A stretch of 64,000 nt of DNA from Paracoccaceae bacterium. Lineage in GTDB: Bacteria > Pseudomonadota > Alphaproteobacteria > Rhodobacterales > Rhodobacteraceae. Positions 60,062 through 64,000 of this stretch are shown here, in pieces. Every line of letters begins with the position of its first letter. Position 1 is the first letter of the stretch. The DNA lies in assembly GCA_020446815.1 (NCBI GenBank), contig JAGRDY010000014.1:117637-181636 (forward strand), written 5' to 3'. The notes below the pieces were generated by a model. That model had not been told where the DNA came from. It searched no databases and saw only the letters and a program-made list of their open reading frames with translations. The position numbers were made by a program, and so were the translations under genes.

Positions 60062-60534
60062 TCCATGAGACGATCGAGGAATTCGCCTCCGCCCTGGCGC
60101 CCGGCAAGGCGCTTGCCGGTCTCGATCTGGGCGAAAAGACCATCGGCGTTGCGGTTTCCGACCGAAGGTTGTCGGTGGCGACGCCGCTTGAAACGATCCG
60201 TCGAAGCAAGTTCACACGCGATGCCGAGGCTTTGCTGGCGATCTGTGCATTGCGCGATATCGGCGGTCTCGTTCTCGGGCTGCCGTTCAACATGGACGGC
60301 ACGGAAGGTCCGCGCTGTCAGTCGACCCGCGCTTTCGCGCGCAACCTGACCCGCCTGTCGGATTTGCCGGTCGGCTATTGGGACGAACGGCTGTCGACCG
60401 TGGCGGCGCAACGCGCCCTTCTGGAGGCGGATACGTCACGCAAACGTCGCTCCGAGGTCATCGATCACGTCGCGGCCGGGTATATCCTGCAAGGGGCTCT
60501 TGACCGGATCGGATATTTGAGGCGAAAGGCATGA
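60058..60534 (+). CDS. ruvX: Holliday junction resolvase-like / pre-16S rRNA nuclease YqgF
   Basis: 158 residues. The RNase H-like fold shows LAGLDLGEKTIGVAVSDRRL near residue 19 (first catalytic Asp), LVLGLPFNMDGTEGPRC near 77 and YWDERLSTVAAQRALLE near 107 (second acidic block), with HVAAGYILQGALD near the end. Now best known for 5' end maturation of 16S rRNA. Coupled by ATGA overlaps to ccmI before and DUF1289 after. Confidence 0.94.
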   Translation: MIHETIEEFASALAPGKALAGLDLGEKTIGVAVSDRRLSVATPLETIRRSKFTRDAEALLAICALRDIGGLVLGLPFNMDGTEGPRCQSTRAFARNLTRLSDLPVGYWDERLSTVAAQRALLEADTSRKRRSEVIDHVAAGYILQGALDRIGYLRRKA

Positions 60535-60773
60535 ACGACGACACCTGGAAACGCGACGAGATCGAATCGCCCTGCGTGAAGATCTGTGTGGTGCACCCTG
60601 TCGAACGCATCTGCGTCGGCTGCCTGCGCAGCGTCGATGAAATCACCTCCTGGAGCAGGATGGACCCGGCAACGCGCACCGCCATCATGGCCGAGCTGCC
60701 GTCACGCGCGCCGCGTCTTCGCCAGCGCCGCGGCGGGCGTGCCGCACGTCTTGAAGGCCGTTCCGCGAAATAG
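60531..60773 (+). CDS. DUF1289 small cysteine protein
   Basis: 80 residues with the DUF1289 cysteine pattern C-x3-C and C-x2-C (SPCVKICVVHPVERICVGC, cysteines at 15, 19, 28 and 31), followed by RSVDEITSWSRM typical of the family. The C-terminus is Arg/Ala-rich. The cysteines probably bind zinc or an iron-sulfur cluster; function unknown. Overlaps ruvX by four bases; converges with dusA. Confidence 0.92.
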   Translation: MNDDTWKRDEIESPCVKICVVHPVERICVGCLRSVDEITSWSRMDPATRTAIMAELPSRAPRLRQRRGGRAARLEGRSAK

Positions 60774-60822
60774 GCCCGCACAGGGCCAGGGTACCCGCGC
60801 CCGTAGCCCCCGCCCCCGCCGT

Positions 60823-61836
60823 TCAGCCGCGGTACCCGTCACCGGCGGCACGGGTCCTGTCTGGCGCAACTTCCCGCAGTGCTGCATCCACGACTTCCAG
60901 CCCGGCCCCCGTGGCGTTTGCCCCTTCGGACAACACTCTGCGCCATGCGCGCGCGCCCGGCACCCCGTGAAACAGGCCCAGCATGTGGCGGCTGACATGA
61001 TGCAGCCGTCCGCCGGCCTGAATGTGCCGGGCGATGTAGGGCCGCATCCTGCCGACCACCTCCAGCCGGTCAACCGGGCGGGGGTCATGGAAGACACGCG
61101 CATCCACCGTCGCCAGCGTATTCCAGGGGTCATGATAGGCCGCACGCCCGATCATCGCCCCGTCCAGCCCCCGAGCCAGAAAGCCCAGGGCTTCGTCCAC
61201 CGTCGCGATCCCGCCGTTGACCGAAATGTGCAGCGCCGGAAAGGCCCGCTTCATCGCCAGAACCAGCGCATGGTCGAGCGGCGGCACGTCGCGGTTTTCC
61301 TTGGGCGAAAGTCCCTGCAGCCAAGCCTTGCGGGCATGAATGGCAAACCGGCGGACGCCCGCCCCGCCGACCGTCTCAAGAAAGGCGGGAAGCACTTTCT
61401 CGGGAACCTGATCATCCACCCCGATCCGGCATTTCACCGTTATTTCAACCGGACTCGCCGCGATCATCGCCGCAACGCAATCGGCGACCAGTTCGGGCCG
61501 TTCCATCAGCACCGCCCCGAAGCAACCCGATTGCACGCGGTCGGACGGGCAGCCGACATTCAGGTTGATTTCAGCGTAGCCATATTCGGCCGCGATCCTT
61601 GACGCCTCGGCCAGTTCCTTCGGATCGGACCCGCCGAGTTGCAAGGCCACCGGATGCTCTGGCGGATCGAACGCCAACAACCTGTCGCGCGGCCCGTGAA
61701 CGACCGCAGCCGCGGTCACCATTTCCGTGTAAAGCAGCGCATGCCGGCTGATCAGGCGATGGAAATAGCGGCAATGCCGATCGGTCCAGTCCATCATGGG
61801 GGCGATGGAAAATCTAGCGTGTTGATTTATTTGCAT
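60823..61836 (-). CDS. dusA: tRNA-dihydrouridine(20/20a) synthase DusA
   Basis: 337 residues. The FMN-binding TIM barrel shows SIAPMMDWTDRHCRYFHRL at 10-28, EINLNVGCPSDRVQSGCFGAVLM near 90-112 (catalytic Cys), HARKAWLQGLSPKENR near 178 and the GLDGAMIGRAAYHDPW near 235. It reduces U20/U20a of tRNA with NADPH. The first seven codons (MQINQHA) are AT-rich, unlike the rest of the gene, and directly abut integrase remnants, as expected if an element inserted at the 5' end replaced the native start. The 5' part of dusA is a known attachment site for a family of integrases. Confidence 0.96.
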   Translation of the reverse strand: MQINQHARFSIAPMMDWTDRHCRYFHRLISRHALLYTEMVTAAAVVHGPRDRLLAFDPPEHPVALQLGGSDPKELAEASRIAAEYGYAEINLNVGCPSDRVQSGCFGAVLMERPELVADCVAAMIAASPVEITVKCRIGVDDQVPEKVLPAFLETVGGAGVRRFAIHARKAWLQGLSPKENRDVPPLDHALVLAMKRAFPALHISVNGGIATVDEALGFLARGLDGAMIGRAAYHDPWNTLATVDARVFHDPRPVDRLEVVGRMRPYIARHIQAGGRLHHVSRHMLGLFHGVPGARAWRRVLSEGANATGAGLEVVDAALREVAPDRTRAAGDGYRG

Positions 61837-61860
61837 TTTTTATATCTTCAAACTGTTGGC
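61790..61860. other. Probable left attachment junction (att) at the 5' end of dusA
   Basis: Sequence changes from GC-rich dusA coding DNA to an AT-rich stretch (GATTTATTTGCATTTTTTATA, about 61824-61844 in parts) exactly at the dusA start. A recombinase pseudogene starts about 110 bases further. The att core would lie in the APMMDWTD codons (about 61790-61815). No second copy is in the window, so the exact crossover cannot be set. Confidence 0.5.
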
Positions 61861-61947
61861 GGCGGATGCTGCTACGCTGGAATACGCCCCAATATCCCCG
61901 AATTTGCCCCGCTACGACGACCCATTGCACACACAGCGCACCCGAAA

Positions 61948-62476
61948 ATGGCCTCCTTCACCAAGCTCCCCTCCGGTGCCTACCGGATCCAGATCATACG
62001 AAAGGGCCGCTTCGCGAGCGAGACGTTCCTCCGTCGCGAGGACGCCCATCGTTGGGCCCTGCCCGAGCGGAGACCCGGGTCGATCAGGGGCTGGCGCCGG
62101 ACAAGTCGTCCGTTTCCCGCCTCCAGACCGTTGGCGACCTCATCGATCTTCATATAACCGATATGTGCGCGGTAGGGAAACCGCCGCGTCGCGAGCCAAG
62201 GCCGCCACGATTACCACGCTCAAGCGCGATCAGGGCAAGGAGAAGATCGGCCACCTCGACCGGCAAAAGCTGATCGACTACGGCAAGATGCGCGCCGAAC
62301 AAGGTGCGGGCCCGGTCACTCTCGGGATCGACATCGGCGTGATCAAGATGATCATCACCCATGCGGCAGCTGTGCACGGCCTCGACATCTCGCCGGAACC
62401 CGTCGATCTGGCGCGCGTGGCGCTCAAACGTCTCGGCCTGATCGGCAAGGGCACGGAGCGGGATCTGTCGCCCTAA
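61948..62476 (+). pseudogene. Tyrosine recombinase (integrase) N-terminal part, frameshifted and truncated
   Basis: The frame opens with MASFTKLPSGAYRIQIIRKG and RFASETFLRREDAHRWAL, an arm-type DNA-binding domain. The reading frame then shifts near 62060 (AETRVDQGLAPDKSS to HITDMCAVGK) and again near 62185 (RAKAATITTLKRDQG to DLARVALKRLGLIGKG), which restores a core-binding SAM-like domain. A stop at 62474 ends it before any catalytic residue. The concatenated product reads like a normal dusA-associated integrase up to the start of its catalytic domain. The missing end is found at 62936-63058. Confidence 0.82.
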
Positions 62477-62668
62477 TACGTGCGAGTTGAACCGCCTATT
62501 TGTAATACTCGACGTTCATATGGCGATTTTGTTGAGAGAGTTTATCCTTACGAAAATGCCGCGTCGGCCGTCGTCCGGAGGGTCAGCCACATCTCGACTT
62601 AAAGCGTTCACTTGTATTTCTAGGATACCAAACACATTGTTCCCTGAAATCTTACTAGAGGCACGAGC
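62477..62668. other. AT-rich DNA inside the disrupted integrase
   Basis: No recombinase-like reading frame and no convincing gene. Base composition is visibly lower in GC than on either side. It ends with a ribosome site for the small gene at 62669. Confidence 0.6.
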
Positions 62669-62890
62669 ATGGACGGTAGCGATCTTTATCGGATTTCCGG
62701 AATATTTATCGGCGTGCTGACTTTTATTGGTTGCTGGCTTTACGCAGTTGCAGAATGGGGTTTCTTCTTAGGTTTCGGGTTAGGATGGATTCCGTCATTG
62801 TTCATTGGGATTATCGCAGGGTTTGTTGGCCCAGCCTTGGTTTTGATGGCCATTGTTGTCGTCGCATTCATGTATGCCGCTAACAACTGA
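62669..62890 (+). CDS. Small two-helix membrane protein of unknown function
   Basis: 73 residues from an ATG at 62669 with AGAGG seven bases upstream. Two hydrophobic segments: about 10-30 (SGIFIGVLTFIGCWLYAVA) and 36-68 (GFGLGWIPSLFIGIIAGFVG then PALVLMAIVVVAFMYAANN). The EWGFFLGFGLGWIPS turn is reminiscent of small uncharacterised proteins from accessory regions of other proteobacteria. Codon choice is AT-richer than that of core genes here. It lies inside the gap in the integrase, so it probably arrived by transfer. Confidence 0.65.
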   Translation: MDGSDLYRISGIFIGVLTFIGCWLYAVAEWGFFLGFGLGWIPSLFIGIIAGFVGPALVLMAIVVVAFMYAANN

Positions 62891-62935
62891 CCGTTATTCG
62901 GCTGACGGGGTCTAGTAGTTCGACGTCCGCTCTGA

Positions 62936-63058
62936 CTGATTACCGGCCACAAGGATTGGAAAATGATGCGCCGATACACGCATATCCGCCCGGAAACGCT
63001 GCACCGGCTCGCCGCGTCACGCGCCCCTTTCCCGCTCGAGACCCGCGCAGCCGAATGA
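62936..63058 (+). pseudogene. Tyrosine recombinase C-terminal fragment with catalytic tyrosine
   Basis: From CTG at 62936 the frame reads LITGHKDWKMMRRYTHIRPE, the box II end of a tyrosine recombinase: GHK contains the conserved His/Lys position and RRYTHIRPE the nucleophilic Tyr (codon 62975-62977). It continues TLHRLAASRAPFPLETRAAE and stops at 63056. An in-frame TGA immediately precedes 62936, so it cannot be translated with the upstream part. It is the missing end of the pseudogene at 61948-62476. Confidence 0.85.
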
Positions 63059-63147
63059 TCCGAGAGTCAGAGGGGCGCCGTCCCGGACCGTGACGGGTTT
63101 GGAGGTCGAGAGAGAGGCTTTCGGCCGCCCGTCGCGGGAGAAAACCC

Positions 63148-64000
63148 ATGAATACCGAAATTATCGATGCCGGGCGTGATATCAGCGGCGGCTACAAGGT
63201 GGATGTGTCGCGCGGTACGAATGTTGATCGCGTGTCGTCCGAGTGGTTCTCGCGACCGGATGACGAGCGGTATCTGTCGCTCGACGATCTCTTTGCGTCC
63301 GTCAAGGGCCGGGCAGAGCGGAGCCGGACGCGCACGGTGGAGAGCGCGGCGATCCGTGTCGAGGCGCATCGCGACAACCCGGAGAAGCTGGGCCTTGTCC
63401 TGCCGGGCGCAGATGAACCCATCGCGCCGACGCATTGGTCCTTCGGCCAGCTCTCGAGCCTCGTCGGTGCCCCCGCGGCCTATCTGCGACAACTGCCCGC
63501 GCCGCTGGCGGGGATCAACTTGCAGTACGGGCTGACCAACCACCGGGCAGAGCAGATCAAGACGATGGAGGTCGCGGATGGCCGCACGGAACTGCGCGCG
63601 GTGACAGGCCCCGACTATGGCCGCATCTACGACCACGAACTGGTCTCAGCCGTGCAGCGCATCGCGGGCAACGGCATTGGCGACACGCGTTGGAAGGTGC
63701 CGGGCGTGCTCGGCTGGTCGACCGGCATCTACAACCCGCGCGTGGACGTGACGAGGGAGACGACGACGCTCTACGCCTCCGATCGCGACGTGTTCTTGTT
63801 CCTCGTCGACGACCTGAACCCGATCGAGGCGGGGCTGCTGCCCGACGGCTCGCCCGACCTCTACTTCCGGGGCTTCTACTGCTGGAACTCGGAGGTGGGT
63901 GCCAAGACGCTGGGCATCGCCAGCTTCTACCTGCGCGCGGTCTGCCAGAACCGCAACCTCTGGGGCGTCGAAGACTTCCAGGAGATCACGATCCGGCACT
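63148..64000 (+). CDS. DUF932 domain protein (cut by window edge)
   Basis: Open from the ATG at 63148 (MNTEIIDAGRDISGGYKVDV), with GGGAG about eight bases upstream, to the end of the window without a stop. The 284 visible codons contain WSFGQLSSLVGAPAAYLRQLP, YGLTNHRAEQIKTMEV, GPDYGRIYDHELV and GWSTGIYNPRVDVTRETTTLYASDRDVFLFLVDD, the pattern of DUF932, phage/plasmid-like proteins that are frequent on plasmids, conjugative elements and prophages. Function unknown. GC content is back to the host level. It is the first cargo-type gene after the integrase remnants. Confidence 0.88.
   Translation, partial: MNTEIIDAGRDISGGYKVDVSRGTNVDRVSSEWFSRPDDERYLSLDDLFASVKGRAERSRTRTVESAAIRVEAHRDNPEKLGLVLPGADEPIAPTHWSFGQLSSLVGAPAAYLRQLPAPLAGINLQYGLTNHRAEQIKTMEVADGRTELRAVTGPDYGRIYDHELVSAVQRIAGNGIGDTRWKVPGVLGWSTGIYNPRVDVTRETTTLYASDRDVFLFLVDDLNPIEAGLLPDGSPDLYFRGFYCWNSEVGAKTLGIASFYLRAVCQNRNLWGVEDFQEITIRH

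Follow-up and report, generated by a model that had tools for sequence, protein, structure and literature searches.

The 5' end of dusA in this Paracoccaceae genome adjoins a broken tyrosine recombinase gene, and the locus raises the question of what kind of element the gene came with, how much of that element is left and whether it can still move. The window (the whole stretch of DNA that was analysed, 64,000 nucleotides long) forms the right-hand end of contig C32, which has 181,636 bases and belongs to a draft genome assembled into 37 contigs with a total of 3.47 Mb. Window and contig end together at base 64000, so nothing further to the right can be read on C32. A sequence-only reading had described a broken tyrosine recombinase at the dusA 5' end. 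This is confirmed: an N-terminal part spread over three frames and a C-terminal piece are both divergent from dusA. The features of the locus are as follows.

60823..61836, minus strand: dusA, 337 aa, intact frame (Pfam Dus, 1.8e-74).
61791..61812, no strand: attL, codons 9-16 of dusA, 22 bp; exact copy at G000:C24:430-451 in the same orientation.
61813-61836, minus strand: first eight dusA codons (MQINQHAR), supplied by the element; start shared with other occupied sites.
61837..61947, no strand: divergent dusA-int intergenic region, presumed to hold an element-supplied dusA promoter; 93.8% identical to related locus L089.
61948..62473, plus strand: N-terminal and core-binding part of the integrase, in three frames (tblastn, DNA alignment).
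62474..62935, no strand: 462 bp of foreign DNA (the patch) where the catalytic core should be, without integrase similarity above shuffles.
62669..62890, plus strand: possible small gene in the patch, hydrophobic (73-aa ORF; putative).
62936..63058, plus strand: C-terminal piece of the integrase with tyrosine box and stop codon (tblastn, to 63055; DNA alignment; PHROGs integrase, 7e-4).
63059..63147, no strand: spacer after int, 82-97% identical in 10 related loci.
63148..64000, plus strand: first 284 codons of a DUF932-type gene, cut by the contig end; homologues are annotated DUF932.

The integrase gene is damaged in several ways. A tblastn search with the N-terminal part of a related integrase (matches on locus L074, converted to window coordinates) placed its residues 1-37, 39-77 and 81-174 at 61948-62058, 62064-62180 and 62192-62473, in three successive frames. 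Two frameshifts and one stop had been read from the sequence; two net frame changes are found in the N part, with a further one-base difference near 62464 followed by a TAA at 62474. The start of this part at 61948 stands, and its end is corrected from 62476 to 62473. When the DNA was aligned with 11 relatives whose integrase frame is open (one of these runs off its contig and one is C-terminally shortened), homology ended at 62473-62480 in all 11 and resumed at 62931-62942; in a looser blast against L089 the left edge reached 62500. The C-terminal piece retains the RRYTH box. Alone, the fragments have no significant match in Pfam and none in NCBIfam. PHROGs recognises two of the three pieces, one as an integrase and one through an unnamed family which also matches an intact relative. 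The RHRH tetrad plus nucleophilic tyrosine of the dusA-associated integrases (DAIs) is incomplete here (residues assigned by eye). The stretch with the first arginine and HxxR has been replaced and the tyrosine box alone is left, so the gene is a DAI remnant and not a working DAI.

The replacing patch has a G+C content of 47%, against 63-64% in its flanks. Relatives carry 433-451 bp of integrase at this place; the stretch in the window is longer by 17 bp in 10 of the 11 comparisons and by 29 bp in the other. The best local scores of the patch against the 11 relatives were 24-33, and 100 mononucleotide shuffles, scored against three of the 11, reached 36. As these scores lie inside the shuffle range, a hidden, highly diverged core is rejected in favour of replacement. 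The near-equal lengths and the lack of integrase similarity also bear out the original proposal that the core was replaced rather than split by a simple insertion. The DNA thus records the death of the integrase by indels and by loss of its core to foreign sequence. Among 394 genomes of the family (at most two candidates scored per genome), the patch was present in one, the window's own.

Other identities for the patch were rejected. It is not a recognisable IS or MITE, since no inverted repeats were found; it folds less well than its shuffles do (z +2.1, all 100 of them being equally or more stable), against a structured nucleic acid; and it has one place in the genome, against a copy of the genome's own DNA. 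A known gene was rejected because the 73-aa ORF lacks a significant database match: there was none in plasmids, viral contigs, Pfam, NCBIfam or PADLOC, and in PHROGs just one at E 0.05.

The window copy is a dead remnant of the DAI family. The family was published in 2015 (Farrugia et al. 2015, PMC4482086), with a sequence-relation threshold of E below 1e-20, the RHRH tetrad and nucleophilic tyrosine, and six phage integrases named as homologues. An intact relative from the present set, L060, matches Pfam Phage_integrase at 3e-22, and matches the integrases of BcepMigl, BcepIL02, DC1, mEp460 and H66 at E 6e-50 or better. These are five of the six named phages; AH2 is not among the best 30 matches listed. 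The relation below 1e-20 was established through the intact L060 against phage DAIs named in the paper, rather than through the broken copy. One genome per species was scanned; 245 relatives were confirmed, and 80 of these were retained as loci. In 75 of these 80, dusA is divergent and lies 109-127 bp from the int start, measured start to start; in the window the distance is 112 bp. This arrangement and the L060 matches agree with the earlier assignment to a family of integrases that target dusA.

The integrase is unevenly distributed among relatives. The N half from genome G014 matches at E up to 1e-3 in 79 of 394 same-family genomes, some of these matches being distant integrases. Two of the 22 same-genus genomes have the N part (the window's own and G014), so the locus varies between related genomes, as the sequence-only reading implied. 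In G014 too the integrase gene is truncated, about 20 codons beyond the point at which that of the window breaks off, and the G014 N part is an open frame. By eye, the cut in G014 joins DNA which reads like a relaxase on the opposite strand. At the same locus (L048) dusA matches in two frames, so that dusA itself may be broken there. Two further oddities were seen in genome G338. At L087 the integrase frame (about 1461-2960) seems, by eye, to switch at around residue 280 to another tyrosine recombinase unlike the dusA integrase, and is 501 residues long from the start codon; at L108 (near 1924-2640), about 84 kb from the first, there is a second, broken dusA-type integrase.

Both ends of the element can be recognised. 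The dusA gene in the window now begins MQINQHARFSIAPMM, and the MQINQH start is also present at seven of the eight other occupied sites read. When the genome was searched with window positions 61700-62000, these positions themselves and the 22-bp copy on contig C24 were found; by our own estimate, a 22-mer would turn up in 3.5 Mb by chance with a probability of about 4e-7. A second partial dusA 5' end with a direct repeat of 15-25 bp had been predicted, and this is what contig C24 holds. On the minus strand, the att copy there runs into the start MRLNTTTEAARFSIAPMM behind a GGAG-rich stretch, and the protein begins MRLNTTTEAAR. This looks like the original start of dusA before integration. Site, repeat and exchange of the dusA start are thus all legible in the assembly. 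Positions 337-461 of C24, att copy included, are 74% identical to the right end of the element in G213 (E 6e-19); the right ends of the elements in G209 and G107 match weakly (E 0.001 and 0.04). C24:1-130 resembles IS256-family ends, and C24:127-271 matches unannotated stretches of three alphaproteobacterial plasmids. C32 and C24 are separate contigs, unjoined in the assembly, and the stretch between them is unread. Gene order beyond the C24 att copy, compared with that upstream of dusA in relatives, gave no synteny support.

Elements delimited in the same way are about 73 kb (G213), 53 kb (G107) and 56 kb (G209) long, and the uninterrupted runs in their att repeats are 14, 14 and 9 bp, respectively. 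For five of eight relatives the right end was not found within the 31-80 kb read. The G107 element encodes a DUF3363/relaxase protein, TrbL, VirB8, CagX, a TrbE-like protein and a secretion ATPase; the intact kind therefore includes conjugative elements. A reverse transcriptase domain protein (L090 6747-7604; RVT_1, 2.8e-8) is also encoded inside this intact dusA element.

With its new start, dusA presumably captured a promoter from the element. A promoter scan returned one promoter-like site against 0.9 expected, with none in the dusA-int intergenic region, and two terminator-like sites against 1.5 expected. As the intergenic region has no promoter match, support for the claim comes from the published argument and from conservation. 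A search of 60500-64000 against Rfam found no family.

To the right of the integrase, the backbone is that of related elements. In five relatives the gene that follows int shares 96-97% identity with the DUF932 gene here. A DUF932 gene was found at 28 of the 80 loci; its distance from the int start is exactly 1178 bp at 20 of the 28, and 1200 bp in the window. The same order (dusA-int-spacer-DUF932) occurs in Rhodobacterales int-DUF932 elements such as those of Brevirhabdus pacifica (L191) and Poseidonocella pacifica (L203), in which the integrase is intact, whereas that of the window is broken. Past DUF932, the next 11.6 kb of the G213 backbone was not found in the searched assembly; the search returned nothing beyond a short match to a repeat and the final 31 bases of the contig itself. 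TrbL was not found in the genome, in a search whose control was positive in 3 of 14; a search for DUF3363 found no match in the genome and none in its controls. A search with the G014 N half found no second close DAI in the genome. Contigs C5, C16 and C27 (1.6-2.5 kb) read as N and could be repeats. Given the negative searches for backbone and for TrbL, and the IS256-type end at the beginning of C24, the element may be just a few kb long, perhaps with an insertion sequence in it. On present sequence, most of the element, transfer genes included, appears to have been lost. The idea of an element whose left end lies here is upheld by the att repeat and both dusA starts; the sizeable island envisaged past base 64,000 is not, as backbone and TrbL were not found.

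The locus is very probably a decayed, CIME-like remnant which keeps both att sites, has no working recombinase and is unable to excise alone. Both att copies are still there, so the remnant may be open to mobilisation, whether in trans or in cis, and a related intact DAI could in principle move it.

A rival reading is a still large island. It would consist of tens of kb on other contigs, with its own integrase dead, and would be moved by an integrase encoded elsewhere, in line with the mobilisation in trans that the sequence-only reading had proposed. The two att copies, the 53-73 kb of intact relatives, the fragmented assembly (37 contigs, with the interior unread) and the other Phage_integrase genes in the genome (five matches) are all compatible with this. 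We regard it as unlikely, given that 11.6 kb of G213 backbone, TrbL and a second close DAI all went unfound and that the far end begins in an IS256-type end. It is very improbable that the broken gene is an artefact, with unrelated DNA joined at the patch and base-calling errors for frameshifts. The contig does end about 1.1 kb past the patch; against this, the patch occurs just once in the genome, the neighbouring dusA frame is intact and similar decay of the integrase gene is seen in other assemblies.

Just as improbable is a change of function, in which the N-terminal part would have been retained to bind DNA, covering the att site or repressing dusA. The N half is frequently what survives when the C half has gone, and the N part is an open frame in G014, but in the window it is split over three frames, and stops and frameshifts occur in broken copies elsewhere too. 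The decayed remnant thus remains the preferred reading.

Decay of this kind recurs at other dusA sites. N-half pieces (at least 55% identity) form 47 merged places, and 24 of these have no such C half within 3 kb; the counts were transcribed by hand, and the 24 include several pieces of 33-42 residues, at least one at a contig end and at least one (G389) which resembles a complete but divergent integrase. Conversely, all 25 C-half places among the matches listed have an N half (at most eight candidates per genome, scored against many other integrases). Fourteen of the fetched loci have N coverage and no C coverage; in nine of them dusA lies within 97-119 bp, and one is cut by a contig end. The natural reading is that dusA anchors the proximal half of the integrase. 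Conservation lends this a little support, though not in the window itself. In 19 broken copies, identity to the nearest intact relative is 92.3% for the intergenic region and 89.7% for the int N part (1.57 and 3.67 gap positions per 100), and in 10 copies grouped as live the values are 94.8% and 93.7%. In the window they are 93.8% and 94.1%, i.e. equal.

Twelve rearrangements in this region are bounded on both sides by L089 homology. Four are swaps of similar length (window, L086, L100, L117), three are insertions (L085, L102 and a second event in L117) and five are deletions (L095, L101, L107, L108, L121). The resident and foreign lengths are about 445 and 462 bp in the window, and about 583 and 600, 1184 and 1369, and 650 and 787 bp in the three relatives. 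With three insertions and five deletions among the 12, exchange at the same length is treated as unexplained and not as a rule. It is improbable that the int-DUF932 border is a place of recurrent swaps of 0.4-1.2 kb of resident DNA for foreign, A+T-richer cargo of similar length, with dusA, which would now depend on a start from the element, anchoring the left end as an enduring scar of earlier invasions. Short-patch double illegitimate recombination is a candidate mechanism for same-length exchange; a literature search on it found no paper. In L086 (2706-3306, G152), roughly 600 bp of A+T-richer DNA stand where the first 197 or so DUF932 codons would be (net +14 bp), with a 143-residue ORF whose product looks secreted. 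A+T-richer patches with complete ORFs also lie at the int-DUF932 border in L085 (2550-3836), L100 (1920-3289) and L117 (2305-3092).

The find is real yet largely ordinary, as the element family is already known to insert at dusA. Its integrases, the dusA target, the exchange of the dusA 5' end and circular excision are covered by Farrugia et al. 2015 (PMC4482086). The dusA-specific islands described there resemble that of the window in the dusA 5' target, the divergent integrase, the element-supplied 5' end and the original 5' end at the far boundary. Their direct repeat is semiconserved over 21 bp; that of the window element is identical over 22 bp. Unlike those islands, the element here has a dead integrase with a replaced core, and most of it was not found. 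Further dusA elements are on record as non-symbiosis ICEs adjoining dusA in Mesorhizobium (PMC8627217) and as a dusA island in Acinetobacter (PMC7392541). CIMEs, as characterised in PMC7563491, are likewise decayed integrative elements that keep their att sites and have lost their own recombinase; their conjugation/mobilization module is lost, whereas in the window element TrbL was not found and the interior is unread. No account of dead DAI remnants was found in the literature, judged by titles and the beginnings of abstracts, which does not prove their absence from print.

The order of events that we infer is as follows. A dusA-specific element would have entered dusA near codons 9-16, through recombination by its DAI-type integrase between a short site in the gene and the element's own site. 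Integration would have supplied dusA with another start codon, eight other codons and, presumably, another promoter, and the original start would have ended up at the opposite end of the element. The integrase gene probably acquired several small indels afterwards, and the foreign 0.46-kb patch came to replace its catalytic core. Most of the element would have been lost, with an IS256-type element now adjoining its right end; what is left is probably small and immobile.

Former elements thus leave legible scars at dusA sites. Should an unbiased count uphold the excess of dusA-proximal halves, the scars could serve to tally past invasions of a core gene. They would also help to ask how a host gene comes to depend on the start site of its invader.
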